A stretch of DNA of 64,000 nucleotides, taken from NCBI GenBank assembly GCA_002694685.1, contig NZMW01000011.1, positions 1 through 64,000 on the forward strand. The letters run 5' to 3'. This DNA is from Balneola sp. (GTDB lineage: Bacteria > Bacteroidota > Rhodothermia > Balneolales > Balneolaceae). Each line of letters starts with the position of its first letter. The first letter of the stretch is position 1. The notes under the pieces were generated by a model, which did not search any database, was not told the origin of the DNA, and worked only from the letters and a program-made list of their open reading frames with translations. The position numbers and the translations under genes were made by a program. Below are positions 6,909 to 36,365 of this stretch, piece by piece.

Positions 6909-6961
6909 CTCGATAGCAATTTTATAGCAGTCACTATCATTTTGCTTATAAAAACCGAAAA

Positions 6962-7000: not shown

Positions 7001-7012
7001 ATTCTATTAAAT

Positions 7013-7087: not shown

Positions 7088-7094
7088 TATTAGA

Positions 7095-7135
7095 AGCTCC
7101 CAAGTGGCTTATACAGGTCATGAGGGGGCTTTTTC
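7095..7135 (+). terminator. Terminator after tRNA-Pro (island-borne copy)
   Basis: AGCTCCC (7095-7101) pairs with GGGGGCT (7124-7130, one G-T pair) and is followed by a run of T. It is the element-supplied replacement for the original tRNA terminator, which now lies beyond attR at 29182-29222. Confidence 0.7.
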
Positions 7136-7186
7136 ATTTTTAGCCCTTTTGCTCTTTTACTCTCAAAGTCGGGTAAATCTACTCTT

Positions 7187-7207
7187 TTGTTACTCTATTG
7201 TTATACA
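7187..7207 (+). repeat. Left subterminal 21-bp repeat (putative integrase arm site)
   Basis: Starts TTGTTACTC and ends ATTGTTATACA. It recurs with one mismatch, in the same orientation, at 29041-29061 near the other end. Shorter related TACTCT motifs lie just upstream (around 7158 and 7180). Position 100 bases inside attL suits an arm-type integrase-binding site; this is inference. Confidence 0.55.
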
Positions 7208-7239
7208 GATTGTTCTCCAAAATAACGGAGAATATTGCT

Positions 7240-8355: not shown

Positions 8356-8383
8356 TTGGCTTTTTTTTAAAATATTTATTGAA

Positions 8384-9823: not shown

Positions 9824-9924
9824 TTCGACAGACCTTTTTAATTAATATTTCTTCTCAATTATTTCGAGAAATAGCAGTTATGGTGCTATTAAGCAAGTCC
9901 ATTTTTAGAACAAAAACGTAAATA

Positions 9925-12171
9925 CTATTTTATTAACATCAACTTTCTAGTGTCCACAAACGCTCCAGCTTGAATACGATAAATATAAGCTCCACTGGTA
10001 AGCCCTGTTGCATCAAAAGTAGCTGTGTGCCACCCGGCGCTTTGTTTATCATTCACTAAAGTAGCTACTCTTTGACCCAGCATGTTAAAAACGGCCAGTT
10101 CAACTTCAGCTGCATCTGGGATACCATAGCGAATTTGTGTAGTAGGATTAAAGGGGTTTGGGTAATTCTGCTGTAGAGAGAACTTATCCGGCTTCGATGA
10201 TAACAGCTCATTTGAAGTTGTCATTTGGGTAGTAAAGCTAAGTACTTCAGACCAGCCACTAAATCCATAACTGTTTACGGCCTGAACTCTCCAGAAGTAT
10301 TTTGCACCTTGGTCTAGGGTATTTACCTGGTACTCTGTTTCGAGCAATTCAGTGACCTCTAGTGTAGTATCTGTAAAAGATTCACTGGTTGATAATTGCA
10401 GCTGATATGTATCTGCTCCCTTTGACTCATTCCATTTCATAAGGGGCGATGTTGAAACACTATCTTCACCATTATTGGGTTCCCACGAAGGAATTCCTGG
10501 AACACCTGATTCGGTAGTAAAAACACCGATTTTACTCCATTGACTATTACCAAATTCATTGTTTCCTCTAACTCGCCAATAGTAGGTTGAGTCATACTCG
10601 AGACTATTTACAACTTGGGTAATCTTCCAATCCTTAGTTCTTATCTTAGAAGCTTCTTCATCATTAACTGAAACAAGTTCATTAAATTCGATACCTGTTG
10701 AAACTTGTAGCTCATAGTCATCTGCTTCACCAATGGGCAACCAAATAAACTGTACTGGGATTGATGCCAAAGAGCTATCTGTAGGAGCATCAAGTTTAGG
10801 TTGATCTAATGCATAGGCTGTTCTAAATGATGTGGTATCACTCCACTCTCCAGTACCAGCTAAGTTGACTCCTCTCAATCTCCAGTAATAATTTGTTCCA
10901 TAGCTTAATTCTCCGTTTAAAGAAAATGTCGTGTCCTCAATACCGAATTCAGAAATAATTTTACTATCAAAGCTTTTCAGTGCAGAAATTTCAATTTCAT
11001 ACGATTCTGAATTATTAGCATACCAATTAAGTGCAGTATCGATAGGAACATTTTCAACACCATCTAAAGGGTAAATTTTGCTAGTAGCAATTGGCGGTTC
11101 TAGGTTTGGTGAAGGAATAGCTTGAACATCTTGCCAGGATAATGCTGGGTAATTATTGGTTAGAACCCAAATTTTCTCAAAGTCTAAAGTATTCATATAA
11201 TAAAATGCAGAGTCTTCGAGCATCTGATTAGTATCAAGACCAACTCCTCCATCGTCAAAGCCTCTTCCAACTGCATTTGATTGGTTTGAACTTTTTACAT
11301 CCCAATATGATGAAACTAACTGCGTCCCATTAACACCTACAATGCCTCCAACATCAACATTGCCTATTACATTACCACTTGAATATGAATTCACTATGTT
11401 GCCAGTCCCTGTTTTCAATCCTACTAAACCACCTATACTTTCCTCACCTTCAACGTCACCCAATGCATACGAGTTTTCAACGATTCCATCCCCGCCACCT
11501 CCTCCACTTCCCATCAATCCACCTACTTGGTTATTACCTGAAATATTTCCAGTTGCAAATGAAGTAATTATGGCTCCGTTTCTATTGTTACCCAATAATC
11601 CTCCAACAACATCAGATCCAGTTACAATAGCTCTGGAAAATGAATCAATAATTTTAGCTCCACCAGTATTATTACCAACTAAACCACCTACAACACCAGA
11701 CCCACTGACAGTACCTGTTGAAGAAGAGTTTTTTATATCACCCCAGGCATTATAACCTGCTAATGCCCCAACAATGCTTTTTCCACTAATCCTACAGTTG
11801 ATAATTACTACATTACTAATTGGAGCACGGTCAACATATCCAAAAAGTCCAACATAATTTTCATTTCTATTTATGTTTAAGTCACTAATTTTATAGCCTT
11901 GCCCATCAAAAGACCCAGTAAAACTTATAATATTATCGCCTATTGGTTCAAACCCTAAACTATCATTCCAAGCAATAGTCTCCCCAGCATCAATGTCGCT
12001 AACCTGGATGTAGTGTTTATCTGGCTGACTACTTATCTCCTGTAGCTGTTCTAACGTAGATATTTGATAAGGGTCCTCTTCAGTCCCAGATCCACCAGCA
12101 AATTGTGCTTGCACTTGCACTGTTCCTAGAAAAACAAAAAGAAGCCCCAATAAAATTTTATTACCCGACAT
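9925..12171 (-). CDS. Secreted GLUG-repeat and fibronectin-type protein with type IX sorting tail
   Basis: This 748-residue protein has an N-terminal signal peptide (about 1-22, ending VQAQ). A run of GLUG-like units follows (about 95-290, repeating GGLVG/VGGLMG). Three fibronectin-type domains come next (about 355-650, with YYWRLRG, YYWRVRG and YFWRVQA strands). The C-terminal type IX secretion sorting domain (about 665-748) contains NYPNPFNP, a GQRVATL strand and a final GAYIYRI. It would be exported through the outer membrane and attached or released outside the cell, perhaps as an adhesin. The Gly/Ser repeats give long open frames on the opposite strand that are shadows. An adhesin-like gene is unusual cargo for a small defence island. 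Confidence 0.85.
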
Positions 12172-12261
12172 ATTATAAATTTTGTATTTAGAAATCCCAT
12201 AAATGTAATGATTTCAAATACTAAATGTAATAATCAGAGCACCTGCTTATTGGGCAATACT

Positions 12262-13599
12262 TTAATTCCTCTCCAAAAAATGCGTCTGGCCCTCCACACG
12301 GTGCATCGTATGAGCTTTAACCAACGTCCCTTTACCATATCGATTATTTATCTCATCTAAAGCTTCATTTCGGGCTACAGATTCGGCTTCATCCTGGAAA
12401 AACATATTCATCTGCTTGGTCTTATCGATTTTATGTGTGCCAATACCCAGGTTCCTAATCTCCAATCCCTTCTGGCATGCCACTGACAAAGCGTATTCGA
12501 CTTTATCCATACAGGCCTCGTATACATATTCGTCAACATTAGTGAAGCCTGGAGTCACAAAGCGAAAGCCTACGGCTGGCCGGTCCGTGTTGTTGAATCC
12601 GAACATTCCGCTGAAGCTGTTGGCTCGGATTCCATAGGCTCGCATTCGGTAGCAAATTTGGTAGATACCAATGGCAAACTCTCCCTTAATACGTTCAAGA
12701 TCTAAGCTGCCCTCAGAAAACGTATGACCATAACTTACGCCCCACTTTGGTGAGTATTCATCGTGTTCTTCTAATATCCTGGCCTGGTCCTGCCCGGTTA
12801 TAGTCTCAAAAATCATTCGTCCGAAGTTGGCCCCGAATAATCGAATGAATGTATTAACGCTTCCCCGATCTACTACATCTCCTATGGTTTGAAATCCTTC
12901 ACCTAAGATATGTTCATAGCGCCGGCGCCCTACCCCCCAAACCTCGTCTACATCTAAGGGATATATGTAAGCTCTCTCGTCTTCATCATTTAGAACCAGA
13001 CTTACACCCTTGGGTTTATCTAAGCTGCTGGCCAGTTTGGAGTAAGTCTTAGATCGCGCTATACCAATAGATCCATAGAGTCCAGTCTCCTGAAATATCT
13101 CATTCTGTAAGCGTTGACCAAACTCTTTGATCTCTTTTTCACACTTGTCTTTCATGAAGGTTAGATCCATAAAGTATTCGTCCATTGAATACCGCTCTAT
13201 CTTGTGGGAGTAGTTTCTCATGATGTGGTGGACTTGCTTGGAAATAGCCGTGTAAGTCGTGTAATCCACCTGAAGCATACAGACATAAGGAAAGAGCTGC
13301 ACGGCCTCGTAGGCGCTCATCCCGGTCTTAACACCGTACTCCCTGGCTTCGTAGGATGCAGTGGCTACTATCCCTTTAACCCTACCATCATCCCTGCGCC
13401 ACCCACCAATTATTAAGGGTAAACCATAGAGCTTTTTTCTACGCTGTTCTACCTGAGCGTAAAAGCAAGCAAAATCAAAATGAAGATATAGTCGCTCTCG
13501 TCGAGATATGTGTTGATGCTCAGGATAAACTGTATTGTATAAAGTAATGCGGTGTACATCATGTTCTGGCTGAAACGGATTCCCTCTTTTTTTTGGCAT
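12262..13599 (-). CDS. Y-family translesion DNA polymerase (DinB/UmuC-like)
   Basis: The protein copies past damaged bases with low fidelity. The palm motifs are visible: HFDFACFYAQVE (about 34-45) with the first catalytic Asp, and YSMDEYFMDL with the Asp-Glu pair. YGSIGIARSKTYSKLASSLDKP is also typical of the family, as is a helix-hairpin region with VWGVGRRRYEHI (about 220). The chosen start is the ATG at 13599 (MPKKRGN), giving 445 residues. An upstream in-frame codon would add 19 residues that overlap the divergent promoter region. No clear beta-clamp-binding tail was identified. It sits on a mobile island near an SRAP protein, which suggests DNA-damage tolerance cargo. Confidence 0.9.
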   Translation of the reverse strand: MPKKRGNPFQPEHDVHRITLYNTVYPEHQHISRRERLYLHFDFACFYAQVEQRRKKLYGLPLIIGGWRRDDGRVKGIVATASYEAREYGVKTGMSAYEAVQLFPYVCMLQVDYTTYTAISKQVHHIMRNYSHKIERYSMDEYFMDLTFMKDKCEKEIKEFGQRLQNEIFQETGLYGSIGIARSKTYSKLASSLDKPKGVSLVLNDEDERAYIYPLDVDEVWGVGRRRYEHILGEGFQTIGDVVDRGSVNTFIRLFGANFGRMIFETITGQDQARILEEHDEYSPKWGVSYGHTFSEGSLDLERIKGEFAIGIYQICYRMRAYGIRANSFSGMFGFNNTDRPAVGFRFVTPGFTNVDEYVYEACMDKVEYALSVACQKGLEIRNLGIGTHKIDKTKQMNMFFQDEAESVARNEALDEINNRYGKGTLVKAHTMHRVEGQTHFLERN

Positions 13600-13620
13600 A
13601 GTTTCTTGATCTTTTATTGA

Positions 13621-13643
13621 TATGTGTAATATATGTGTGTAAT
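13621..13643. promoter_or_regulatory. Repeated TATGTGT motif in divergent polymerase/unknown-gene promoter
   Basis: TATGTGTAAT (13621-13630) and TATGTGTGTAAT (13632-13643) lie in the 69-base gap between the two divergent starts. Spacing of about 11 bases, one helical turn, would suit a dimeric repressor. This is a candidate operator only. Confidence 0.3.
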
Positions 13644-13668
13644 TTAAAATGACCAAAAAGAGTTGGTC

Positions 13669-14271
13669 ATGAATAAATTCCCCTTAATCGAAATGTTGGC
13701 TTATTTCTCGAGACACAGCCGCCCATCTGTGCCTCAATGGAGAGATACCTTTGTACAGAACCAAAAGAGAATCCTAACATCATGTACCAAAGAAGAAGGT
13801 GGTATTAAGAAGTCCTATTACAGCATCGAAACAAAAGAAGGTGAGATCATTGACTTAATATTCAATCATGAAGAACTGATCTGGGATCTGGAAGCCTCCG
13901 GGAAGCTAAAAGGTTATACCGTAGACAAGGTTCTTGTCCATATGAAACGCCACAAGAATCCTACCTCTGCCTCCCACCGAGTGGTTCCACTACGTTTCGA
14001 AGTATTGCCAAGATCAGAGGTCGAGCGTAAATCTCCTATTGAGTTCTCACTTATCGAGCGAATGCAGCCGTATCGGTTTCAGAAGAATAGCAACGGCTCC
14101 ATCCAGGTTCAACGCGTCGTAGCGCGTAATAATGAAAACAGGATACATGAGGTGAATCTCAACTACGTCGTCGAGGATACTGACAAGCGATTCTACCACT
14201 TAATCTTTATCACAAAAGACTTGGACTGGAGATTCATCAAAGAGATGGATCGCTTACTGTTTGAGGACTAA
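13669..14271 (+). CDS. Unknown protein divergent from the Y-family polymerase
   Basis: About 200 residues, no family recognised. It begins MNKFPLIEMLAYFSRHSRPS, contains a Trp-bearing N-terminal helix region and a beta-rich centre, and ends acidic (LLFED). There is no signal peptide or membrane segment. The start at 13669 is chosen because AAAAAGAG lies 7-14 bases before it; a TTG two codons upstream is possible. It shares a 69-base intergenic region with the polymerase gene, a typical layout for co-regulated partners. A role in the polymerase's regulation or recruitment is a guess from position. Confidence 0.65.
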   Translation: MNKFPLIEMLAYFSRHSRPSVPQWRDTFVQNQKRILTSCTKEEGGIKKSYYSIETKEGEIIDLIFNHEELIWDLEASGKLKGYTVDKVLVHMKRHKNPTSASHRVVPLRFEVLPRSEVERKSPIEFSLIERMQPYRFQKNSNGSIQVQRVVARNNENRIHEVNLNYVVEDTDKRFYHLIFITKDLDWRFIKEMDRLLFED

Positions 14272-23429: not shown

Positions 23430-24131
23430 TCATTTATTTAATTTAACCTGGATAACATCATTTTCATTAATAACAATAGTATTTGGCTTGTCATTATTTT
23501 CTATTTCCTCGCATATATAATATTTGCCCCCCATATTAGATATCAATACATAGTCTTTAAAAACATCTTTAGAGTCTTTTAAGTAAAGATCTATTTTGTT
23601 TCCAAATACTCCTTTGGCAACACTTCTTGCAACTACATTAGCATAAATTTTAGTTGCCAAAATGGAGAGCATCAATAAAGCAATAGCTATAAAAAATTTT
23701 CCGTGGTTATCCTTTATTGCCTTACCTACTGCAAATATTCTATCCCTAATAATTATTTTTATAAAAATGTAGGTAATCAAAAGAGAAAAAATTATAACTA
23801 TTCGAATCCATAAAGCATCTATAAAGGGTTGTACGCTAAATACTATTATTAAGAAGAGTAATAGTATTATTGGATGAAGAGAAATGCTTATGTCTTCTAT
23901 GCTATTTATTCTTTTACCTGAATTGTCTAATACAATAATTATATACGCGAACATTATCACTAAACTTGACCAAGCTGAAAGAATAATATTCAAAAAAGAA
24001 ATATTGAGTGCACTTTCAGGTATGCCAAAAAAACTGTAATAACTCTCCCAATATATCCAACCCATAAGGTATATATAACCAATACCTAAGCTTAGTAATA
24101 TTGCCAAATCAAATTTTTTGTTTCCACTCAT
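23430..24131 (-). CDS. Unknown five-helix membrane protein coupled to hsdS
   Basis: 233 residues, no recognised family. Five hydrophobic segments are visible (about 8-28, 43-67, 86-104, 107-127 and 142-162), followed by a soluble C-terminal tail of about 70 residues with beta-like pattern (DYVLISNMGGKYYICEEI). Its ATG overlaps the hsdS stop by 4 bases (ATGA), so translation depends on hsdS. The DNA is notably A+T-rich compared with hsdM and hsdR. A membrane protein is not part of any classical type I enzyme. Membrane proteins in defence loci are often pore-forming effectors, but nothing here proves that. Confidence 0.75.
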   Translation of the reverse strand: MSGNKKFDLAILLSLGIGYIYLMGWIYWESYYSFFGIPESALNISFLNIILSAWSSLVIMFAYIIIVLDNSGKRINSIEDISISLHPIILLLFLIIVFSVQPFIDALWIRIVIIFSLLITYIFIKIIIRDRIFAVGKAIKDNHGKFFIAIALLMLSILATKIYANVVARSVAKGVFGNKIDLYLKDSKDVFKDYVLISNMGGKYYICEEIENNDKPNTIVINENDVIQVKLNK

Positions 24132-25312
24132 AAACTTTCAATTTCAATCTTCCCCGAAATCAACTTTGGCAAAAGTAAATCTCTGGTTTCCCGAAACTTT
24201 CTATTTTTATTTATAAGCGTATCGATTTCCTCATAAATAGGTTGTACAGTGCTATTAAACTGATCTATTATTCCTGATTTTGGTTTTTTTACCATTATAC
24301 CGTGTAAGTTTTTAGAACTTATATTTGGCTGTGCAGCCCCATAGGCTAAATTGTTCATGATATCTTGATACTCTCTGCTCTTTAAGAGCTCATAAAAGTA
24401 ATTAATAAGGTGTCTATATTTCTTTGTAAATACTTTGCCAACCCTTTGATTAGCATAGAAGGGCCCTTCTAATTTTGGCACTCGAACAACTCGACCAATG
24501 TATCCAGTCATTGTCAGTAAAACATCACCATTTTTTAGCTTAAATTTTTGACCTCTTTCAGGTATTGGACCTTCGTGATAATCAAGGCTGTCGATATCTA
24601 ACCCATTATCAGTTACATTTTTAATTTTAATTATACCGAAAGCCCCATCATCTGATAAGTTTTTACTTTTAAATGCATATCCTGATTTAACCTTAAATAG
24701 GTCTCCAAGCTCTTTAACCTCCCACCCCTCAGGAATCTCCCCCAAATCCGTTCCGGAATCGACCAGAGCATCATTCTCGTGGCCGGGGTAGCGGTAGTGA
24801 ACAAACCACTCGCGGTAAATGAGCCGGGCCATCTCTTCCAAAATCTCAATGCGCCGGGTGTTGTTTTCGATGAGGTCATCAAAAGTTGAGAGTATTGAAG
24901 CTATCTTTTGTTGGGTATTTAAGCCTGGAACTGATACCTGAAGTTTGTGTACATGATTTCTATTTAGCGTTGGGTTTGAAGCACCTACATCGTACTTCTC
25001 TAAATGAAGAGTTTTAAGGAAATAATAAATGAACAACGGATCATTACCATTAAACTTTTTAACCCATAAAGTTGTGTCATGTGGCCAGTAATTACTATCA
25101 CTGTAGTGAACAGTTCCTAAAGATCCCTTCCGTCCAATAATTACACCTGGCCCCTTTACCTTATACTCATTATGATTATAGCTTACTCCAGAAGAAGATA
25201 TGACATCATATGAACCTTCAACTCGTTCTTTTTTTGTAATATCAAAACCTCTTTGAAGTGTAATAACCTCGCCAAGCTTTTTGTTCTCCCAACTATTCAT
25301 AACTTCTTTCAT
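24128..25312 (-). CDS. hsdS: Type I restriction enzyme, HsdS specificity subunit
   Basis: This 394-residue subunit chooses the bipartite target sequence. Two target-recognition domains are visible. The first (about 8-150) opens [15 protein letters not shown]. The second (about 200-350) opens [18 protein letters not shown]. Conserved helical spacers follow each: [25 protein letters not shown] (split here for length) with the [11 protein letters not shown] segment, and a terminal [15 protein letters not shown]. The start overlaps the hsdM stop by 4 bases. The two recognition domains are A+T-rich and the central spacer G+C-rich, consistent with domain exchange by recombination in the conserved spacer. 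Confidence 0.94.
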
Positions 25313-26904
25313 TCTAAGATTCTTTGAATATTCTGAGATATCTGATTCTCTAATTTTGAGGCATTAATATTCAAAAGCTCTAATTCTTCATACAACTCTT
25401 CCAGCCTGACTTTGAAATCAACATCATTTTCTTCTCGTTCTTTGACTCCCACATAACGACCTGGATTTAAACTCCATCCCTGAGCCTCAATTTCTTCCAC
25501 TGTAGCCACTTTACACAAGCCGGGAATGTCTTCATACTTCCCATTCGGGAATAGCTCATTCATATTATCAGGTTGAGTAATGGCATTACCATTGGCCTCA
25601 TATTCTATCCCTTCTTCGGCAGCCATAGGGATGGTCGCTTCCATTTCTTTGCCCCGGTAGCGCCGGACGATGCCTGAGATGAAATCAATCTGTTCCGGAG
25701 TATAATCGCGGTGGGCACGGTCAAGCTGCCGGTAGATATTCCGGGCATCAATAAAAAGCACTTTGTCTTCACGGTCGGTGCCTTTCTTTCCTTTATCCAG
25801 GAACCAAAGCGTACAGGGCAAGGTCACCGTATAGAAGAAGTTGGAGCTGATCGAGATGATTACATCCACCACGCCTTCCTCAATCATTTTCTTGCGGATC
25901 TCCTGCTCACTATGTCGGGCATCGGCTGCGGAGTTGGCCATTACAAAGCCGGCGCGTCCATTGTCGTTCAGGGCCGCATAAAACTCCTGCATCCACAGGT
26001 AGTTGGCATTATCGGTACTCGGCACTCCAAATGGGTAGCGGGGATCAGTTTCAATGGCTTCCTTATCCACCCCGCTTACATTAAAAGGTGGATTGGCCAT
26101 CACATAATCAAACTTACCGACCACATCGTGAAGATTCTCATAATAGGTATTCCCTGCGCGGATGTCGCCCTCCAGTCCGTGGACGGCCAGGTTCATCTTA
26201 CACAAGCGAACCGTGGCATCCACCTTTTCCTGTCCATAAATAGAAAGCACTTTGGAAGCTTCCTCCCGGTGGCGCTGACGAAACTTCTCACTTTGTATAA
26301 ACATACCACCCGAACCACAGGCCGGGTCCAGGATCTTCCCGCCATAGGGCTCCATCACTTCCACAATCAATTTTACAAGAGATGTCGGGGTAAAGAACTC
26401 GCCGCCTTTTTGCCCCTCACTCATCGCAAACTTACCCAGAAAGTATTCATAGATCTGCCCGAATACATCTCCTTCAACTCCCATTGGAATGTTGGAAAAG
26501 GTTTTCAGCAAATCCTTCAGGATAGGGTTATCAAATCGTTTGTATCGCTTCGGCAGCACATCAGCCAGCTCCGGGTTTTCCCGTTCAATAGCTTCCATCG
26601 CATCGTTGATGGCCTTGCCAATGTCCTCACTTTCAGGCATCTCTAGGAGCTGATCATACCAGGCTTCTTCCGGGAGATACATAACACCCTCAGCTTTGTA
26701 GTCATCCGGTCCAATCGTGCGCCGGCCTGTGGCTTGCTGGGAAAGCTCATCGTGCACTGGCTTAAACCGGCTCCAGGCATACCGCAAAAAGATGAGCCCT
26801 AATACCGGATTCGAATATTCGTAGGAACTGAGAGATGAATTGGCCCGAAGACTATCTGCGGCACTCCATAAACGATTCTCCAACTGCTTGATGTCTGTAC
26901 TCAT
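25309..26904 (-). CDS. hsdM: Type I restriction enzyme, HsdM methyltransferase subunit
   Basis: This 531-residue N6-adenine methylase has an N-terminal helical domain (about 1-150, with [16 protein letters not shown]). The catalytic domain carries [17 protein letters not shown], the cofactor motif [11 protein letters not shown] (about 193-203) and the catalytic NPPF (about 273-276). Two HsdM and one HsdS make the modification core. It is the first gene of the operon; its leader contains the tRNA-like sequence at 26999-27105, which ends 94 bases upstream. A long open frame on the opposite strand (25711-26646) is a codon-bias shadow. Confidence 0.95.
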
Positions 26905-27860: not shown

Positions 27861-28724
27861 TTAACTATCTGAAAATGCTCTTCTAGCTTGCGCCCAATAA
27901 AGTTGCTGATATTCTTTAGTTTTTTGGATGGCGTTAAAGCCAAGCACATCGTGAACAACAAATAACGGTAGTTGATATTTAAGAGCTACCGTAGTTGCAA
28001 ATGTATACCTAGCAGTTTCAAACTTCAATTTAAATGGGATGCCGATCATCTTCTGTATCTCCTTTAAATCTTTACTTGTAGAAACACCTCCAATACCTGG
28101 AAATATCAAATTGCAATTTTTTGCCTTCCGATTATCATCATACTTATTGTCTATATCCATTAACTCTGGTAGGCAAGGAACTAATCGATTTTCAAAACTC
28201 TCTCCTCTTTTTAGGGAGAACCAATACAATTTATCTTTATAGATAACGTCTTCAAAACTTACTGATTTCAACTCTTCTAAGGACATCCCGGTGTAACAAC
28301 TGTACAGAAATAGATCCCGTACCAGATCCGTATCTCCTTTTAAGTCCAACTTATGGAAGGCCTCTATCTGTTTTTCATTTAGGTAATTAATGCTCTTTTG
28401 ATCTTTGGAGAATGAGAAGTATTGCGCCGGATCAACAGGTACACTAAACCCTCTATTCCTTGCATATCGAAATACCTTTCCCATCATCCACACATAGGTA
28501 ACAGCTGAATTATTGGATAGATCATATTCTTCTCTTAGAAATGCATAAAACTCGTCAGCAAAGTCTTTTCCAATTTCGTTGAATTCCAGGTCTTCTTGTC
28601 TATACTTCGACTGAATGAAATTCCCTAACCTTTTCCTGATTGTCTTATTCTTCGTTAGCGTAGCTTTAGAGCCGGTAAGTGATTCATTATGGTTATCGAA
28701 TTGTGCTAAGATGTAAGCTTTCAT
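27861..28724 (-). CDS. Degenerate, N-terminally short tyrosine recombinase
   Basis: This 287-residue protein has the SAM-like (about 20-100) and catalytic-type (about 115-287) domains of a Bacteroidota tyrosine recombinase. The first catalytic Arg, normally in TGLR, is Ser in YTGMSLEEL. The box II His is Glu (FETARYTFAT), the following His is Tyr, and the LGH histidine is Phe (VLGFNAIQKT). The second Arg and the Tyr (TKEYQQL) remain. It also lacks the N-terminal arm-binding domain usual for the roughly 400-residue family. The frame is otherwise clean, which suggests selection for DNA binding rather than simple decay; both are open. Confidence 0.8.
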   Translation of the reverse strand: MKAYILAQFDNHNESLTGSKATLTKNKTIRKRLGNFIQSKYRQEDLEFNEIGKDFADEFYAFLREEYDLSNNSAVTYVWMMGKVFRYARNRGFSVPVDPAQYFSFSKDQKSINYLNEKQIEAFHKLDLKGDTDLVRDLFLYSCYTGMSLEELKSVSFEDVIYKDKLYWFSLKRGESFENRLVPCLPELMDIDNKYDDNRKAKNCNLIFPGIGGVSTSKDLKEIQKMIGIPFKLKFETARYTFATTVALKYQLPLFVVHDVLGFNAIQKTKEYQQLYWAQARRAFSDS

Positions 28725-29120: not shown

Positions 29121-29175
29121 TAGAGCGCTCGGCTGGGGGTCGAGAGGTCGCAAGTTCAAATCTTGTCGCCCCGAC
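29121..29175 (+). repeat. attR: duplicated 3' part of tRNA-Pro
   Basis: Exact 55-base copy of 7033-7087, starting in the D arm and including the anticodon loop, T arm and 3' acceptor strand. It lacks the 5' acceptor and half the D arm, so it is not a functional tRNA. It marks the right end of the island; the chromosome resumes at 29176. Confidence 0.93.
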
Positions 29176-29289: not shown

Positions 29290-29990
29290 GTGGTTGATCA
29301 CTTTCACTTATTCAACCAATGTGGTTCAGAAGAGTCTTGGCGTATTCTCAAGCTATATCAGGAAAAAGGGTTTGTTACCGTACATGATTGGACAAAGATA
29401 GATTCAAAATATCAGCGTTCTACCTTCTTTTTTCAGAAGGATAAGAATCACATGGGATATATCTATGCAGCAACCAATTACCGACAAGAAACAGAATGGC
29501 TGTTAAAGATTGATCTGGATGAGTTCTTGTTTATGAATGACAAAAAAGAAAGTATCAAGGGCTGGTTAAAAAAGCTCAAGAAAGACTCTATTCGATCTAT
29601 CCGCGTGCCTCGCATAGATTTTGGAAGTAATGGGCATGAAAAAATGCCAGAAGAAGGTGTATTAGAGAGTTATATCTGCACTTCGAATTACAAAGATATG
29701 GCTAACAAAACTATTTGAATGATAATAAACGATGTCTCTCTTCATATAAATGGACATGCTTATGGTTTTTTGGTGGAAAGTTTTATAAACCTGACCCATT
29801 AAAGAGTCTTCGAATCAATCATTACTACACAAAATCAAAAGAAGAATATTTAAATCGGCAGAACATTGCGTACGAACGAAAAGTAAGCGAGGAAAATTTT
29901 AGAGTAATCGAAGAACGAACGAATCAAGTAGTGGATAAATCTATGAATCATCATTTTCCCCTTGATTTACAAGCTCTGTACTCCGATTAA
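29290..29990 (+). pseudogene. Broken glycosyltransferase (GT2/GT92-like)
   Basis: Two open pieces belong to one glycosyltransferase. The first has VDHFHLFNQCGSEESWRI and the metal-binding WLLKIDLDEFLFM; the second has FFGGKFYKPDPL and RINHYYTKSKEEYLNRQ. The 5' end is missing: a TAG lies directly upstream of the first homologous codon. The first frame stops at TGA (29716-29718), but coding-like sequence continues in the same frame (MIINDVSLHINGHAYGF). It then shifts frame in a T-run near 29765 into the second piece. So there is a 5' truncation, a nonsense codon and a frameshift. It lies just beyond attR on the chromosomal side. Confidence 0.82.
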
Positions 29991-30208
29991 TCACCGAAAT
30001 CTGAAAAGAAGTCACCACGGACCCATTCAAGATACAAGCGAAAATCATCCGATTTAGAGTACCAATCAAGAGCTAAGCTAAAAATCTGGTCCTTACGTTC
30101 TGTAATATTTCCATCATCATTAACTTGGCTAGCTCGGAAAAAATCAAATCGATTCAATAAAACCGAGTTTTGACCTGTATAAAAATTAGTTTGTAGAACT
30201 TTTAGTTT
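29987..30208 (-). pseudogene. C-terminal remnant of an outer-membrane beta-barrel protein
   Basis: A minus-strand open frame without start encodes about 73 residues with alternating aromatic strands: NFYTGQNSVLLNRFDFF, QIFSLALDWYSKSDDFRLY and LEWVRGDFFSDFGD before TAA at 29989-29987. The aromatic-rich end fits an outer-membrane barrel, perhaps a porin or capsule-assembly protein; the exact family is uncertain. Its stop overlaps the end of the glycosyltransferase pseudogene, and its 5' side runs into the truncated GT4 gene in another frame. It looks like the surviving 3' end of a deleted gene. Confidence 0.6.
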
Positions 30209-30605
30209 CTAGTCCGGATATAGATTGAAGGTCTTTAGCGATCTGATATCCCCTCCTTATATCAAATATTGTATCATTATGATCTTTTAGTTTTTGATAG
30301 ATATAACTTATTGTCCCCACCTGTAATAAGTCAATGTTACTTATTCGTGTTGCAGTAATATGTGTACAATCCTTTATGGAGTGGTCGATTAAGCTATTTC
30401 TCCCCCACCACGGAATTCTCACACTGCCAGTTATATGCTCTATCTTACAATCAAACTTTCTTTCAAGGCTTGATTTGGTTAAGCTTGGTGCAAATACAAT
30501 TACCTTGTGATTTTTTCGGACCAGTTCATTACTTAATTGCGTAACATGAGTCTGTACTCCTCCCGGAATTGATAAATCGTAAGGGCACACCTGAATGATA
30601 TTCAT
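30186..30605 (-). pseudogene. Truncated GT4-type glycosyltransferase
   Basis: 139 residues. The first 75 or so match the N-terminal domain of GT4 glycosyltransferases: MNIIQVCPYDLSIPGGVQTH, ALSNELVRKNHKVIVFAP-like spacing and VRIPWWGR. The family is normally 350-400 residues and its whole C-terminal nucleotide-sugar domain is absent. The last 60 residues have no clear match and may come from another gene joined by deletion, since the outer-membrane remnant overlaps its end in a different frame. It diverges from the PLD-family gene with only 20 bases between the starts. Confidence 0.65.
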
Positions 30606-30625: not shown

Positions 30626-31618
30626 ATGTGTGTAAATTACGCTGCCAATGAAATTCGTGTTTTTACGGATAGCGATCATTTTTTTGAGCAGCTTACCACC
30701 GACGTTCAAAATGCTAAGCAATCGGTGCGTATCCAATGCATGAGTTTTGAAGCCGATCAGGTTGGCGTCAAACTTATTGAATTGCTCGGCAGTAAGCCAA
30801 CCATCGAGCGCATTTTATTGATTGACCATTATTCACGCTTTGTTGTTAATGATACCTTTTTAAATGCACCTCAAGGCTGGATGAATAAAGACAATGCCCG
30901 CGAAGAACGTAAGGACCTAGACAAGCTTATTCAACGAGCAAAAAAAATGGGCCTTCGTATTAAATTTACTAACCCCATGGGGTTTTTAATGCATCGCTAC
31001 CCTGCCCGAAACCATAAGAAAATGATCCTCATTGATGAGGATGTATCCTATGTGGGAGGCATGAATTTTACAGAGCATAATTTTCTTTGGAGTGACATGA
31101 TGGTACGGCAAGAAAACCCGGATATTAATGCTGCTTTAAACGTCTCCTTCATGGCTGACTTAAATGAGACCGAGCCAGAGCCTATTATAGACGTTAATGA
31201 TGATGTGACCCTTTACACGTTAAATGGATGGAAGACCAAGGCAGTGTTCGGAGACTTAATAAACCGAATAAAATCCAGTAATAAAGTCATCGCCATATCA
31301 CCTTATATCTCCTACCCAATGCTGGATGCAATTGCTTCGGTAGAGGATAACACCGTAATCCTTCCTAAGAATAATAATAAACCGATTATTCAGTTTTTGC
31401 ATGGCCTGGAGCGTTATTCGGAAATTAATTTTAAATACGTTCCAGGCAAAATGCTTCACGCAAAATTGCTTATTTTGGACGACCAAACAGCGGTCTATGG
31501 ATCTTCAAATTTTGACTTGATAAGTTACTTTTTTGAGAAAGAAGTAGTTTTGGTCCACAAAAATGAAAATCTGATAAAACAACTATCAACGTTCACGTCA
31601 GAACTAATTAATAAATAA
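30626..31618 (+). CDS. Phospholipase D-family protein (cardiolipin-synthase-like)
   Basis: This 330-residue protein has the two HKD motifs of the PLD superfamily: NHKKMILIDEDVSYVGGMNF (about 131-150) and LHAKLLILDDQTAVYGSSNF (about 280-299). Each supplies a catalytic His-Lys-Asp set to one shared active site. Such enzymes hydrolyse or exchange phospholipid headgroups. There is no clear signal peptide or membrane anchor. It is followed after 6 bases by a CDP-alcohol phosphatidyltransferase on the same strand, so the pair probably acts on the same lipid class. The annotated start may be a little too long; MSFEADQ or a nearby residue is not favoured because it would cut the first strand. Confidence 0.88.
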   Translation: MCVNYAANEIRVFTDSDHFFEQLTTDVQNAKQSVRIQCMSFEADQVGVKLIELLGSKPTIERILLIDHYSRFVVNDTFLNAPQGWMNKDNAREERKDLDKLIQRAKKMGLRIKFTNPMGFLMHRYPARNHKKMILIDEDVSYVGGMNFTEHNFLWSDMMVRQENPDINAALNVSFMADLNETEPEPIIDVNDDVTLYTLNGWKTKAVFGDLINRIKSSNKVIAISPYISYPMLDAIASVEDNTVILPKNNNKPIIQFLHGLERYSEINFKYVPGKMLHAKLLILDDQTAVYGSSNFDLISYFFEKEVVLVHKNENLIKQLSTFTSELINK

Positions 31619-31624
31619 CCACGG

Positions 31625-32533
31625 ATGTCTTCAAAGGGTTTTTTCAGTAATTACGATAACTCTATAAAAAATCGAGTTGTTGAGGAAGGTTATGACCTCT
31701 ACTTCAGCCGGCCTTGTGGTTTTGTACTAGCTAAGTTTTTCCATAAGCTACATTTTACTCCTACAAATATTTCCGTTTTAGGGATGTTGATAGGGGTGGC
31801 TGGAGGGACTTTACTCTACTGGCAAGATGTTTTGATGTACACATCTATTGGGTTTGTACTGGTTACTTTTGCAGGTTTAATGGACAGTGCTGATGGACAA
31901 GCTGCCCGTTTATACGATCAACGATCGGAAATGGGAAAGTACCTTGATTTCTTTAATGACATGCTGGTATTTATCAGCTGTTATCTCGCAGGAGCACTTT
32001 ATTTTGCTGACACATATACCCTTGCAGGTATCTTAGCTATCGGTTTTGCTTCCGGATACGTACACAGCATTAAATCTAACCTCTATGAATATTACAAAGG
32101 GGAGTTTTTACATTTCAGCCTCACCGATTCCAAGCACCGAAACCCTCCCGTTGATGACATTAAAGACAATTTTGACAGATCTTCAACTCTTCTTCGACGA
32201 GTTACTTATCCAGTCCTGATTAACTATGTACAGCTTCAAAACAAGATTAAGTTCAGAAGCGATGAGGTCACCGAGGCTTTTGAACGTGCAAGGAAAAAAG
32301 ATCCTCAAAAATTCAAAGAAGTTTATCAGCGGCACTGTCGTAAAATGCTAGCGGGCTGGGCTTGGGTTTGTGGGTCAAACATCATGAGAAACGGAATACT
32401 GGTTTCCAGTTTATTTGGAAGGTTTGACATCTATCTAATCGCAAATATTGCCTCTTATGGACTTTACTTATTGGTGGGTAAGAAGCAAAACCAAGTAGAT
32501 CAAAGAATCCTTACAGAAATTAAAGATTGGTAG
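31625..32533 (+). CDS. CDP-alcohol phosphatidyltransferase
   Basis: This 302-residue membrane enzyme transfers a phosphoalcohol between a CDP-linked donor and an alcohol acceptor to make phospholipids. The signature D-G-x2-A-R-x8-G-x3-D-x3-D is complete: DGQAARLYDQRSEMGKYLDF and the ND that follows (about 90-112). Several hydrophobic helices surround it (about 45-65, 70-88, 118-136, 140-155, 270-290). It follows the PLD-family gene by 6 bases and converges with the MMPL gene (one base between stops). The donor or acceptor alcohol cannot be told from sequence. The PhnW-like gene nearby raises the possibility of an amino- or phosphono-headgroup. Confidence 0.9.
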   Translation: MSSKGFFSNYDNSIKNRVVEEGYDLYFSRPCGFVLAKFFHKLHFTPTNISVLGMLIGVAGGTLLYWQDVLMYTSIGFVLVTFAGLMDSADGQAARLYDQRSEMGKYLDFFNDMLVFISCYLAGALYFADTYTLAGILAIGFASGYVHSIKSNLYEYYKGEFLHFSLTDSKHRNPPVDDIKDNFDRSSTLLRRVTYPVLINYVQLQNKIKFRSDEVTEAFERARKKDPQKFKEVYQRHCRKMLAGWAWVCGSNIMRNGILVSSLFGRFDIYLIANIASYGLYLLVGKKQNQVDQRILTEIKDW

Positions 32534-32534
32534 C

Positions 32535-34937
32535 TCACCTCTTAAGAAGAAAAGTCTGAACTAATAAGGACGTAATATAAGTTGCCAGAAGGGTTGTTGT
32601 TATCCCTGTAATGGCCAAGATACCCACCGACTCCATTCCAGGGTGATCAATAAACAGCAGACCAATAAATCCCAGGATTGTTGTTACTGAGCAAGCGGCT
32701 AAAACAGGGAACCTGCTTGAAAGAAAATACTCCAAAAACGACGCCCTTTTATTTATGAGAGCATCTACAAGATGTATTCCATTATCAGCCCCAACACCTA
32801 TTATTATAGGAAATACAATCACGTTATATAAATTAATATCGAACATATAAACTGACCGAACTGCTAGCATCATTGCAATGGTAAGTAATAGCGGTGTTGC
32901 CGCAAGCAGTGCTCTCAGAACAGATCGATAGTACAAAATTAAGATCATCAAAATTGTAATCAGTGGAACCACAAAAAGAAAGGTCGACTCCTGTATCAAA
33001 AGCTCTAAAATACTGGATGCAATCATCTGAGTGCTTGCTGCATAAAATGTTTTGCCCGATTCTACTGAAATTGCTCCTGAACTTTTCCTGAATTGAATGG
33101 AAGCTTGCCCATTTGATAAACTCATGGCAGAGTACACAACAACGAGTGGCGCCATACTTCCATCTTTATAAAAAAATCTGTTCTTAATGTATTTAGGCAA
33201 ACCTTCAATGGTAGGCGGTACCGAATTTTGGGCTAGATCAATAAACTCTTTAACATCAGAACTAACATTAGCTAAAAACTCTTCATTTACAGCCAACAAC
33301 TGTTTTATTGAATCCACTTTTTGAGCTTTCATACTGAGTTCCTCGTCACCTGTAGGATAACGAGCTGAGAAAGATTCTACCGTTTCAATATCCTGATATT
33401 TCTTACCTATTCCGGCTTTTATCTCATTAAATAAAGCCTTTGACTCTCTCACATTATCGGTTACAAAAAATGTGGGGTCATGGTAACTCTCACCGGTTTC
33501 GATTTGGGTTTTCAATTCATCGAAAGATGTCCTGCTGGATTCCGGTTCTAACTCCGAAAAATTAAAGTTAAAACTCAAAGATTGAGCACCAATAAATCCT
33601 CCAACACTTATTAGAAGTAAAAATACGGGTAACCCTATTTTACGGGCTTGTCTACTGATTCCGGACGATGAAGTATTTAGCCAGAGGGTGGCTTGGTCTT
33701 TTACCGAACTACTTTTTAGAATAGAAGGTGAAAACAGTAAAAACAGATACGTCGATAGTAAGTTTACAATAATATTGATAAAGAAAATGATGCCAAACTG
33801 AATGAAGCCTTCAAACTCAGCAAATATCAGGCTCATAATAGCCAGTCCGGTGGTCAGGCAGCTTAACAAAATGGGCTTCGTTGACGAGAAATAAGAACGA
33901 ACTATGCTGCTCAGTGAGGATGTATCTAGAGGATATTGCTTATTGATAGAGTAAAGATGCAGTATATAATCCAGATTTATTCCGAAGAGGATGCTGAAAA
34001 TTATACCCGTGAATACATTGATCTCATTAAAAATAAAGGACGAGAACCCAATTGAAATGATAAAACCGGAAAATAGCACGAAGAACACGAGCAGAATATC
34101 TACAATCACATACCGGATTTTATAGCCGGTGTTTTGGTTCACCAGAACCATATATGCAATTAGAAAGCCAACAAGGCTAAAAATACCAATGATTAATGCC
34201 TTTGCAATCGTACTCTGCACATCATTAATTTTGTAATAGTGATCTACATAAGAACCTCCCCAATATAACTCCAGATTATTGAAATTTGCTTCCAGTTCAT
34301 TTTTCTGCCGCTGTAATAGCTGATATGTATTTTTCACCTTATTGTAGTCGCTCTTAGGAAAATCCGCAAGAAATAATATGCTAATCACGGTACTGTCCTC
34401 ATTCATATTGTACCGGCGTGTACTTGCCACTTCTTCAAGCAGTACTGAAGAGTTTGAGGCTGTTTCGAGCGAAGTCTCTGGTGTGGCGTTTTCATCTTCA
34501 TCAAAGTTAACATAAAGTGGATTAGCCTCTAGCTTTTGTTGAGTTACGTAGTTACTAATCTCAATGTAAAGGCTATCAAGTTCTGGTTCCGTCATTAGAA
34601 ACAAGGCAGACTTGCGGATATCAAACAAGTCATTTTCCAACTCTGCGCTTCTAAATACTGGCTTACTTTTATTACTTAATTCTAGCAGGGAGTCCTTGAT
34701 AGCATGTGACGATGGAACAACTGATTGACCATTTTTGGAACTAATAATGAGCGTAAATCCACCTTCGCTAGAATTTAATTGTTCAAGTTTTTTGTAGGTA
34801 TTTAGGTGAGGATTATCTGCCGGTAATAGAGCAATGAGCTCGCCGTTGAACTCGAGGTTTAAACTTCGATTAAGTAAGTAGGCGAATGCAACTGAGTAAA
34901 CAAAAAGAAATAGGAAAAGTAATTTTTGGTGCTTCAT
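32535..34937 (-). CDS. MMPL/RND-family exporter (lipid or hydrophobic-substrate type)
   Basis: This 800-residue inner-membrane protein has the RND duplicated layout: helix 1 (about 6-22), a large periplasmic loop (about 25-240), a five-helix block (about 245-400), helix 7 (about 430-450), a second loop, and a last five-helix block (about 655-798). The blocks contain the FGINLDYILHLY and IGVGADNGIHLVDALI motifs, with the Asp residues used for proton coupling. It resembles predicted lipid exporters such as the hopanoid-associated HpnN type. It starts 2 bases after the PhnW-like gene ends, so the two share a transcript, and may export the lipid made by the neighbouring enzymes. Confidence 0.85.
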   Translation of the reverse strand: MKHQKLLFLFLFVYSVAFAYLLNRSLNLEFNGELIALLPADNPHLNTYKKLEQLNSSEGGFTLIISSKNGQSVVPSSHAIKDSLLELSNKSKPVFRSAELENDLFDIRKSALFLMTEPELDSLYIEISNYVTQQKLEANPLYVNFDEDENATPETSLETASNSSVLLEEVASTRRYNMNEDSTVISILFLADFPKSDYNKVKNTYQLLQRQKNELEANFNNLELYWGGSYVDHYYKINDVQSTIAKALIIGIFSLVGFLIAYMVLVNQNTGYKIRYVIVDILLVFFVLFSGFIISIGFSSFIFNEINVFTGIIFSILFGINLDYILHLYSINKQYPLDTSSLSSIVRSYFSSTKPILLSCLTTGLAIMSLIFAEFEGFIQFGIIFFINIIVNLLSTYLFLLFSPSILKSSSVKDQATLWLNTSSSGISRQARKIGLPVFLLLISVGGFIGAQSLSFNFNFSELEPESSRTSFDELKTQIETGESYHDPTFFVTDNVRESKALFNEIKAGIGKKYQDIETVESFSARYPTGDEELSMKAQKVDSIKQLLAVNEEFLANVSSDVKEFIDLAQNSVPPTIEGLPKYIKNRFFYKDGSMAPLVVVYSAMSLSNGQASIQFRKSSGAISVESGKTFYAASTQMIASSILELLIQESTFLFVVPLITILMILILYYRSVLRALLAATPLLLTIAMMLAVRSVYMFDINLYNVIVFPIIIGVGADNGIHLVDALINKRASFLEYFLSSRFPVLAACSVTTILGFIGLLFIDHPGMESVGILAITGITTTLLATYITSLLVQTFLLKR

Positions 34938-34939
34938 TA

Positions 34940-35914
34940 CTAGCTATATGGTTTAAGGTAAGAGCAAATTTCTGAGACCACTCGCTCAACATCCTCCTTA
35001 TATAAGTCCCCTATTACTGCCATACGGAAAGTATCAGATTCCGGGATTACGCCCGGATAAATCGTGATATCTTTTTTGTACAAATAATCATGAAAATGGT
35101 CGAAGCCTTTTGGCAACACCTTATTTAGCTTAATAGCCATCAAAATTCTGGATTGTTGTCCATCAGGTAAATAGAAATTAAATCCAAGATCGCTAAGCCC
35201 ATCACATAGCACCTGCCAGTTTTCTCTGTACCGATTCCACCAAGAATGGATCGTTTCTTCGAGCGTTTCTTCAATTGCCTGCATAAAAGCATAGCTAACC
35301 TGAACGGGCGGAGTAAACCTAAGCTGCTTTTTCTCTTTTAAATACTTCCACTGCTTATACAAATCAAAGTAGAAGTTTCGGGAATTTTGCTTCAGTTCCG
35401 GCAATAGTTCTTTACGGAAAATCACGAACGACAGCTCGGCCACCCCTTGAATGCACTTATTGGATGAAGCGGCTAAATACCCAATATTCAGCTTATCTAA
35501 ATCCATAGGATAAGCACCAAAAGAACTCATAGCATCCACAATCAACGTCACATCAAAATCACTGCATAATTCGGAAATTTCTTCTATGGGATTCATCATT
35601 CCTGTTGAGGTTTCATGATGAATCATAGCCAAGTGGGTAAAGTCACCATTTTCTAACCTTTCTTTAATCAGTTTTGGATCCGGATAGTCACCAAAATCGC
35701 AAATAGTCTCATGAGGAAGTTCATATGATTCACAAATCTGTTTCATTCGAATGCCATACCCCCCATTTGTAACAATAAGAGCTTTTTTCGTTTTATTGAG
35801 TGAAGAATTCAGTATAGCCTCCGCTGCGCCGGTTCCACTAACAGCAAATATGGCACACTCGTATTCTTTGTGACCATTTCCGATAGTTAGAAGGCCACTC
35901 AAAATGTCTTGCAT
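34940..35914 (-). CDS. PhnW-like class V aminotransferase, 5' end probably broken
   Basis: 324 residues from the first ATG. It matches 2-aminoethylphosphonate-pyruvate transaminase: AVSGTGAAEAIL, MIHHETSTGMMNPIEE, VDAMSSFGAYPMD and the PLP lysine in SSNKCIQGVAEL. Homology continues upstream of the only ATG: the ten codons 35915-35944 read CPRKEDFGTP, matching the family, but are preceded by TAA (35945-35947). The same frame before the stop reads KVLLLND, which aligns with the family's VKEAMLFDS. The conserved N-terminal PGP-containing segment is therefore lost or out of frame. It is either a recent pseudogene or makes a short protein. It is coupled to the MMPL gene. Confidence 0.75.
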   Translation of the reverse strand: MQDILSGLLTIGNGHKEYECAIFAVSGTGAAEAILNSSLNKTKKALIVTNGGYGIRMKQICESYELPHETICDFGDYPDPKLIKERLENGDFTHLAMIHHETSTGMMNPIEEISELCSDFDVTLIVDAMSSFGAYPMDLDKLNIGYLAASSNKCIQGVAELSFVIFRKELLPELKQNSRNFYFDLYKQWKYLKEKKQLRFTPPVQVSYAFMQAIEETLEETIHSWWNRYRENWQVLCDGLSDLGFNFYLPDGQQSRILMAIKLNKVLPKGFDHFHDYLYKKDITIYPGVIPESDTFRMAVIGDLYKEDVERVVSEICSYLKPYS

Positions 35915-35944
35915 AGGAGTTCCAAAATCTTCTTTTCTTGGACA

Positions 35945-36365
35945 TTAATCATTTAATAATAATACTTTTTAATGTTGAATCGGGTTTTGGGTTTGGTAAT
36001 ATTTTTTCAACGAATATTTACTAATTTCTACGCTTAAAGCTAGGGAAGTATGACGTAAATTCGCAGTTTCATTTTAATTAATCCCTTTCGGTTCCTTTGC
36101 TTTTATATGTGTTAACGCTGAAGTATTCCTTGTTTTTTCTTCCGCATATTCAATGTGTGCTACTAATGCTTTATTCTAACCTCACATATTATTACTAACT
36201 GTTTTGTTTTGCGCAGACTCTCATAACTCATTGAGCATTCAGCTAGTTTATTCTCTTGACTTTCTTATATTATCAGCGCTACTGAAAATTTTTTTGATTA
36301 CATATTTGTATCATTTAAGGGTTCGGGAACTCAGATTAGCTTAAAAATTTAAAAGGGTATCGGGT
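35945..36365. other. Gene-free stretch before the GAF-phosphatase gene
   Basis: About 420 bases. The left 70 bases hold the damaged N-terminal coding remains of the PhnW-like gene (a minus-strand frame at 35952-36011 encodes LPNPKPDSTLKSIIIK-like sequence). The rest is A+T-rich with no gene, tRNA or strong hairpin seen. Confidence 0.5.

Follow-up and report, generated by a model that had tools for sequence, protein, structure and literature searches.

Almost nothing is known of the biosynthesis or roles of surface phosphonates, according to PMC6697681, and their attachment to bacterial lipids is poorly understood. The described systems closest to the locus analysed here are the Pnt clusters with nucleotidyl activation (PMC6697681), a putative phosphonolipid cluster of a lichen Nostoc and of Burkholderia (PMC5987646), and an alternative inositol-lipid cluster of Bacteroides and Prevotella, for which PMC9246714 proposes a Kennedy-like route. 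We analysed a stretch of 64,000 nucleotides from Balneola sp. (hereafter the window). Its locus is, in our judgement, probably the decaying remnant of a cluster whose enzymes produced 2-aminoethylphosphonate (AEP), converted it into its CMP ester and coupled this headgroup to a membrane (glyco)lipid destined for export. The complete clusters of its relatives provide a defined set of genes with a candidate CMP-AEP:lipid transferase and a candidate exporter, an inositol version in another family provides a natural control for the gene determining the headgroup, and the window locus is a natural case of loss of function.

Layout and decay of the locus

The locus consists of the following features:
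29290..29990, plus strand: remnant of a GT92-family glycosyltransferase (tblastn; Pfam PF01697)
30375..30605, minus strand: remnant of a PimA-like GT4 (tblastn; Pfam PF13439)
30626..31618, plus strand: PLD-superfamily (cardiolipin-synthase-like) enzyme, 330 aa, ORF intact (Pfam PF13091/PF00614)
31625..32533, plus strand: CDP-alcohol phosphotransferase, 302 aa, catalytic motif kept (Pfam PF01066)
32535..34937, minus strand: predicted MMPL/RND-type (HpnN-like) membrane exporter, 800 aa, ORF intact (Pfam PF03176)
34940..35914, minus strand: remnant of aepZ (AEP aminotransferase), a class-V aminotransferase ORF of 324 aa (TIGR03301)
35915..36030 (outer limit approximate), minus strand: decayed 5' end of aepZ (DNA alignment, tblastn and three-frame translation)

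The original prediction described four genes in two convergent pairs, with gaps of 6 bases (PLD and phosphotransferase) and 2 bases (MMPL and aminotransferase), and the ORF coordinates bear this out. It erred in taking the aminotransferase for an intact gene reaching position 35944. That position opens a TGT codon immediately preceded by an in-frame TAA, and the earliest start codon available to the ORF is the ATG at 35914. This ORF scores 311.2 bits with TIGR03301 (cut-off 360.8), with coverage starting at profile position 34, and lacks the first 40–43 residues of the full-length proteins of five relatives (362–365 aa; alignment A3). The missing 5' end is still recognisable as decayed sequence. 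Aligned with four intact genes, it lacks a start codon where theirs lies and shows an 11-nt deletion that shifts the frame, and an in-frame TAA, and the NPGPG segment, identical in the four intact proteins aligned, is altered. Conserved positions are also substituted within the ORF, e.g., G203E and R268W (alignment numbering). The SNKC context, whose lysine is presumably the PLP lysine, is retained. Tajima tests gave p values of 0.033 and 0.027 with G003 as the outgroup and of 0.28 and 0.44 with G035, i.e., the acceleration of aepZ is weak. Since dS has reached or nearly reached saturation whenever the window genome is compared, we make no dN/dS claim for its aepZ or MMPL. The 324-aa ORF, the SNKC context and the weak acceleration count against reading the gene as a remnant: either the decay is recent or the shortened form is still in use.

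Other genes of the locus are damaged or absent. The PimA-like GT4 is cut to the first 75 of 380 residues (71% identity over residues 1–75, tblastn). The GT92 remnant aligns by tblastn as two segments that lie in different reading frames (with 61% and 56% identity to a 261-aa gene of G003, locus L034), with a frameshift near 29706–29709 and the first 30 residues not found; among the five intact loci, such a gene was seen in G003 alone. The phosphotransferase ends within its C-terminal tail region, up to ~15 residues of which were lost through an early stop. We found no trace of aepX, aepY, or the PntC-like NTP transferase, LicD-like, Stealth and ABC genes between positions 29001 and 37000 (E ≤ 1). 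A SpoIIE-like gene (at 36366) and a DUF6962 gene lie ~97 kb apart both in the window genome and in its relative G023, with the locus at opposite ends of this segment in the two genomes. We rejected a simple inversion as the cause of the gene loss: a breakpoint upstream of aepZ would place aepX and aepY next to DUF6962, where neither has a match in the window genome (E ≤ 1) and other genes, one of them resembling metK, occupy the place.

The three remaining genes are better preserved. The PLD protein is 57–75% identical to four orthologues, and the residues of its HxK-type PLD motifs are invariant in their alignment. It belongs to the PLD superfamily but scores only 73.4 bits with the cardiolipin synthase model TIGR04265 (cut-off 290). 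The phosphotransferase is 52–87% identical to four orthologues (alignment A1), among which D87, D90, G91, A94, R95, G104, D108 and D112 are invariant, matching the CDP-alcohol phosphotransferase motif DxxDGxxAR...GxxxDxxxD given in PMC9246714. Its AlphaFold model (three sequences) was too poor to use (mean pLDDT 50). The MMPL protein is 58–68% identical to five orthologues (tblastn) and passes Pfam MMPL (PF03176) with 36 for a cut-off of 20.5. None of the three genes shows significant rate acceleration, as expected if they are still working.

Complete clusters in relatives

We searched 92 genomes of the family using the phosphotransferase as a query. Six genomes besides that of the window matched at E ≤ 2e-99. 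Five of them, three from the same genus and two from other genera of the family (two of the five being MAGs), carry, in order, aepX-aepY-aepZ-MMPL-CDPAT-PLD-GT4-NTP; in the sixth (G087), the contig terminates within the phosphotransferase gene. The conservation of the four-gene order, proposed as a check in the original prediction, was thus found: order and orientation are kept in the five relatives, beside aepX and aepY. Their aepX is a cytidylyltransferase fused to a PEP mutase. The GT4 is a PimA-like glycosyltransferase and the NTP transferase a PntC-like cytidylyltransferase. The larger cluster also holds a gene for a Stealth protein, with a LicD-like gene in four of the five and an ABC-exporter gene in three.

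All five AepX proteins contain EDKxxxxxNS, given as the PEP-mutase motif in PMC6697681. The only one scored, from locus L031 of G023, reached 404.9 bits (cut-off 319.55). The aepY of the same locus, which has orthologues in all five loci, scored 472.6 bits with TIGR03297 (cut-off 312.5), and its aepZ passed TIGR03301 (372.3 vs. 360.8 bits). The N-terminal domain of AepX matches PDB 5x3d (E 1.7e-50). Residues 15–253 of the 254 of the G023 NTP transferase match residues 2–239 of PDB 6pd1, which we take to be PntC (E 7.5e-31), and aepZ matches the aminotransferase portion of this chain (E 3.2e-87). The second-best structure for the NTP transferase was the CTP:phosphocholine cytidylyltransferase 1jyk (E 6.4e-16). 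Going by its closest solved relative, this enzyme is PntC-like, with a predicted AEP cytidylyltransferase activity. The intact GT4 of G023 matches PimA structures (E about 2e-22).

Phosphonate enzymes in the window genome

The original prediction saw no PEP mutase in the window and suggested searching the genome for this enzyme and for phosphonopyruvate decarboxylase. PEP mutase was not found in the window genome with TIGR02320, with PF13714 (9 of 14 control genomes exceed its cut-off) or with a relative's aepX as a query. No phosphonopyruvate decarboxylase exceeded the cut-off (best AepY-family match 36.2 vs. 312.5 bits). The profiles TIGR02320, TIGR03297 and TIGR01422 exceeded their cut-offs in none of the control genomes, so these three negatives lack a positive control, whereas the aepX query, positive in the five relatives, provides one for the absence of aepX. 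The assembly has 17 contigs and is 99.7% complete and 0.08% contaminated; a missed gene might sit in an assembly gap. We also rejected a catabolic role, with a best PhnX-family match of 49.6 bits (cut-off 220), in a search confined to PhnX, among the catabolic enzymes PhnX, PhnA, PhnY and C–P lyase, that no control genome (0 of 14) passes.

Synthesis and export of a lipid with an aminophosphonate-type headgroup, as originally proposed, is the best reading for the five relatives. It fails for the window genome at present because aepX is not found, no aepY exceeds the cut-off, aepZ is broken at its 5' end, the PntC-like, LicD-like, Stealth and ABC genes left no trace in the locus (E ≤ 1), and GT4 and GT92 are fragments. 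The proposal was to fall if phosphonate genes were missing and the four genes did not co-occur elsewhere: the pathway is indeed missing here, but the genes do co-occur elsewhere, together with the pathway. The phosphonate idea thus suits the relatives, and probably their ancestor too, but not the window genome, which retains a decayed relic.

An inositol counterpart

Two loci in another family of the order (G104 and G106) combine GT4, PLD and CDP-alcohol phosphotransferase genes with an inositol-phosphate synthase and an inositol-phosphate-type cytidylyltransferase; ABC and MMPL genes accompany them in G104 only, with no MMPL match within the 16.7 kb examined at G106. The window genome has a separate inositol locus (contig C1, about 65.8–71.8 kb) encoding an inositol-phosphate synthase (PF07994/PF01658), an NTP-transferase (PF12804/PF00483) and an MMPL paralogue. 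The MMPL of the G104 locus is closer to this paralogue (442 bits) than to the MMPL of the G023 AEP locus (303 bits), and in G104 the window MMPL finds its best match on C13, away from the inositol locus. These affinities and the lack of a match at G106 weaken the inclusion of MMPL in a constant core, and we therefore restricted the common core to GT4, PLD and the phosphotransferase. Since AEP and inositol loci share these three genes, the headgroup supply and its matching cytidylyltransferase appear to swap around the core: inositol-phosphate synthase and the inositol-phosphate-type enzyme in one family, AepXYZ and PntC in the other. The probable CMP-bearing substrate of the phosphotransferase (CDP-diacylglycerol vs. 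CMP-AEP/CDP-inositol) was judged solely from this exchange of partners. We tentatively propose, as a possibility rather than an expectation, that the core, usually with an MMPL nearby, takes such cassettes interchangeably and that the core of the window may now use the inositol locus.

Proposed route and alternatives

What the sequences establish is which genes are present, their order and families, and the lesions; the substrates, the lipid product and its export are all inferred. In the relatives, AEP would be made by the successive action of the PEP mutase AepX, the phosphonopyruvate decarboxylase AepY and the aminotransferase AepZ. Its conversion to CMP-AEP would fall to the PntC-like enzyme, to the cytidylyltransferase domain of AepX, or to both. 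The CDP-alcohol phosphotransferase would transfer AEP to diacylglycerol or to a glycolipid acceptor, the latter possibly built by the PimA-like GT4. The PLD-like protein may remodel the headgroup, and export of the product would rest with MMPL, joined by the ABC transporter in the loci that have one. The LicD-like and Stealth proteins may put AEP or sugar phosphates on a glycan; family resemblance suggests a lipid rather than a glycan as the product. In the window genome, where no AEP-synthesis enzymes were found, the pathway should not run, and the PLD, phosphotransferase and MMPL genes, which are still open, may be relics or may now serve a different headgroup.

The survivors could instead form a working phosphonate-free set for the synthesis, remodelling and export of a phospholipid, e.g., cardiolipin-like or an inositol lipid, perhaps supplied with CDP-inositol by the separate inositol locus. 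Their open frames, the motifs kept in the phosphotransferase and PLD, the absence of significant acceleration, the presence of that inositol locus and the association of GT4, PLD and phosphotransferase with inositol-phosphate synthase in another family all favour this view, but the locus no longer has its glycosyltransferase and nucleotidyltransferase, and a recent loss of constraint would stay hidden with dS near or at saturation. We regard it as rather doubtful. That the shortened aminotransferase acts on imported AEP or another amine, making the four genes a salvage-and-export set, is improbable: the long ORF, its ATG and the weak acceleration are compatible with it, whereas the loss of the N-terminal residues including NPGPG, the changes at conserved positions and the low PhnX score (although no control genome passes either) are not what it predicts. 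Assembly or sequencing errors, or the joining of two strains in the window, are a highly improbable source of the lesions, given that these are of different types in three genes and that aepX is missing from a nearly complete and uncontaminated genome.

Comparison with known systems

Among the titles and abstract openings surveyed, with subscription journals mostly outside the survey, there was no Balneolaceae phosphonate cluster or AEP/inositol swap, which does not imply absence from print. Like the Pnt clusters (PMC6697681), the relatives encode a phosphonopyruvate decarboxylase, an AEP aminotransferase and a LicD-like protein (4 of 5), together with a PEP mutase that carries a fused cytidylyltransferase (PF01467) and a nucleotidyltransferase (PF12804) whose match in PDB 6pd1 is the N-terminal part of the chain. 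Unlike them, they add CDP-alcohol phosphotransferase, PLD-like, MMPL and PimA-like GT4 genes, and the window genome has lost most of the set. The Nostoc and Burkholderia cluster (PMC5987646) shares pepM, ppd, AEPT, NTP transferase and CDP-alcohol phosphatidyltransferase; its figure legend includes an oxidase and HpnL, not identified in the Balneolaceae loci, and names no PLD, MMPL, GT4, LicD or Stealth, some of the genes being labelled 'unk'. The inositol-phosphate synthase, NTP transferase and CDP-alcohol phosphotransferase of G104 and G106 resemble the Bacteroides/Prevotella cluster (PMC9246714), from which they differ by GT4 and PLD in both loci and ABC and MMPL in G104; in the family of the window, AEP supply replaces inositol supply. 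In the wider MMPL family, the window protein shares its Pfam domain with the hopanoid/lipid RND exporters, and HpnN (TIGR03480) is its closest NCBIfam model, but it falls far under the cut-off (105.6 vs. 751.85 bits). We regard the clusters as a new variation on the phosphonate-tailoring and CDP-inositol lipid clusters already described.

Gene content of the locus

Sequence comparisons suggest that the locus is the relic of a phosphonate-headgroup cluster, in a genome without a working phosphonate pathway. The four ORFs of the original prediction are present as described, with gaps of 6 and 2 bases and the two pairs converging, and their families are backed by Pfam and NCBIfam:

30626-31618, + strand, PLD-family protein (Pfam/NCBIfam support)
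31625-32533, + strand, CDP-alcohol phosphotransferase (Pfam/NCBIfam support)
32535-34937, - strand, MMPL protein (Pfam/NCBIfam support)
34940-35914, - strand, class-V aminotransferase (Pfam/NCBIfam support)

The aminotransferase had been extended to 35944, which is a TGT codon directly after an in-frame TAA; the earliest possible start is the ATG at 35914.

The genome (3.95 Mb, 17 contigs, 99.7% complete) gave no PEP mutase with the two family models TIGR02320 and PF13714 or with the AepX protein of a relative. Among 14 control genomes, PF13714 was over the cut-off in nine, and TIGR02320 and the decarboxylase model TIGR03297 in none. No phosphonopyruvate decarboxylase of the genome passed the cut-off (best 36.2 vs 312.5 bits). 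At E ≤ 1, nothing in window positions 29001-37000 matches aepX, aepY, NTP transferase, LicD-like, Stealth or ABC genes. The proposed phosphonate function was a good guess for the relatives described below, but not for this genome, which has no working phosphonate pathway.

Complete clusters in related genomes

The aminotransferase search in 92 genomes of the family gave five strong matches outside the window genome (E ≤ 2e-143), three in the same genus (G023, G026, G029) and two in other genera (G003, G035). All five loci share the order aepX, aepY (phosphonopyruvate decarboxylase), aepZ (2-aminoethylphosphonate, AEP, aminotransferase), MMPL, CDP-alcohol phosphotransferase, PLD, GT4 and NTP transferase, with Stealth further on. 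The order of the four predicted genes, whose conservation had been proposed as a check, is kept in every intact locus. Within the 20 kb fetched per locus, a LicD-like gene is found in all but G035 (four of five), an ABC exporter in the three of the same genus, and, among intact loci, GT92 in G003. In a further genome (G087) the PLD and phosphotransferase genes are adjacent, and the contig ends inside the latter.

The aepX, aepY and aepZ products of the G023 locus all score over curated cut-offs. AepX is a cytidylyltransferase domain fused to PEP mutase. Among solved structures, the former domain is nearest to 5x3d (E 1.7e-50); this entry is listed as phosphoenolpyruvate phosphomutase, and we take it to be the Fom1 cytidylyltransferase domain. 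The AEP-type NTP transferase and AepZ are closest to residues 2-239 and 247-609, respectively, of 6pd1, listed as 'Nucleotidyl transferase/aminotransferase, class V' and presumably T. denticola PntC-AEPT. The intact GT4 of G023 is closest to phosphatidylinositol mannosyltransferase PimA. All five AepX proteins carry the motif EDKxxxxxNS, specific to PEP mutase according to excerpts of PMC6697681.

Elsewhere in the family, G046, G050, G060 and G061 encode aminotransferases 36-39% identical to the window's; the fetched stretches around them contain none of the remaining genes of the window locus. Matches to aepX occur in 14 of the 92 genomes (E ≤ 0.001); four are weak and partial (G011, G045, G047, G072), which leaves ten strong. 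Five genomes hold aepX outside a window-type locus. The four inspected (G008, G034, G044, G064; G084 was left out) have an aepX-aepY pair, and the fetched 6.5-20 kb show no BLAST match to phosphotransferase, PLD or MMPL. Loci L041-L044, from four genomes of the family other than those with the complete cluster, carry a more distant pair (aepX 59-64% identical) amid other genes, and would represent another phosphonate pathway. The next gene encodes 371-374 residues in three of them, and in L044 a 334-residue weak relative of AepZ (27% over 150).

Decay of the window locus

The aminotransferase gene of the window is broken. Its ORF matches the NCBIfam AepZ/PhnW model from position 34, with 311.2 bits, below the cut-off of 360.8. 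The five intact orthologues have 362-365 residues, and alignment with four of them shows that 40-43 N-terminal residues are missing. In the DNA alignment with the same four genes, the 5' end lacks a start codon at the corresponding position and shows an altered NPGPG segment, an 11-nt deletion, and TAA at the site of the relatives' Ile codon. Of the neighbouring GT4 gene, no more than residues 1-75 of 380 survive (30186-30605), and a GT92 gene (29290-29990) has lost its start and is frameshifted.

Just beyond the ORF holding the GT4 remnant, a fragment (30002-30190, - strand) is a weak match, 39% identical (E 6e-7), to residues 279-341 of a 514-residue gene product adjoining the G035 cluster. 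The 3' part of a tRNA-Pro gene (7013-7087) forms a 55-nt perfect direct repeat (7033-7087 and 29121-29175). The repeats bracket ORFs that, by eye, resemble an integrase (27861-28724) and type I restriction-modification subunits (24128-26904). The ~22 kb between them is probably an integrated island, whose end lies ~120 bases short of the damaged GT92 gene. A ~97-kb segment from SpoIIE-like to DUF6962 genes (contig C11, 36366 to 132843) has equal length in G023, where the cluster lies at its opposite end.

For the phosphotransferase, PLD, MMPL and the aepZ body, in this order, dN was 0.082, 0.166, 0.234 and 0.194 between the window genome and G023, against 0.220, 0.359, 0.301 and 0.195 between G003 and G023. 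Among the four genes, aepZ alone is therefore equally far from G023 in the window genome and in the other genus. Relative-rate tests of aepZ gave 41 vs 23 (p=0.033) and 39 vs 21 changes (p=0.027) with outgroup G003, and p=0.28 and 0.44 with G035; for the other three genes, none of 12 tests gave p below 0.2. Judging by this weak signal, aepZ has decayed recently or only mildly, and PLD, phosphotransferase and MMPL may still be functional.

Inositol-type loci and a constant phosphotransferase

The phosphotransferase profile matched 14 of the 244 genomes of the class at E ≤ 1e-30, window genome included. Two from another family of the order (G104, G106) encode GT4, PLD, phosphotransferase and NTP transferase with an adjoining inositol-phosphate synthase; G104 additionally has MMPL and ABC genes. 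Its synthase reaches 401.4 of the 638 bits required by TIGR03450, and is thus a family relative only; it shares 74% identity with the G106 synthase. Both loci match G023 in GT4, PLD and phosphotransferase (33-40% identity, E 2e-47 or better). For their NTP transferases the nearest relative is CTP:inositol-1-phosphate cytidylyltransferase 2xme (E 3e-15 and 1.3e-19), and they score 103 and 91 bits against the enzyme of an inositol locus in the window genome vs 40 and 56 bits against the AEP type. The G104 MMPL is also nearer to the MMPL of that locus (442 bits) than to the AEP-locus MMPL of G023 (303 bits), which counts against a constant exporter. The other five class-level matches were weak, and simple BLAST showed no such neighbours; two lie on 5-6 kb contigs, and ORF calling was poor in some others.

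This inositol locus (L079, contig C1, 58000-77900; genes at 4206-13802 of the stretch) encodes a sulfotransferase, a flippase-type polysaccharide biosynthesis protein, myo-inositol-1-phosphate synthase, an NTP transferase and an MMPL paralogue (29%), an arrangement also found in G023. It may be involved in making an inositol lipid or glycan. Speculatively, its synthase, NTP transferase and MMPL paralogue could be an alternative supply for the remnant.

The CDP-alcohol phosphotransferase appears to be the constant partner, and the headgroup supply and cytidylyltransferase the variable ones. This swap suggests a CMP-activated headgroup, CMP-AEP or CDP-inositol, as the substrate that the phosphotransferase would use. 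We infer all four of CMP-headgroup use, acceptor lipid, PLD step and export. Use of CMP-activated inositol has been proposed for an alternative Bacteroides cluster (excerpts of PMC9246714).

Comparison with known systems

We did not find this cluster's set of partners described in the portions of the literature examined. The logic of a phosphonate-headgroup cluster is itself already known, as excerpts of PMC6697681 and PMC5987646 indicate.
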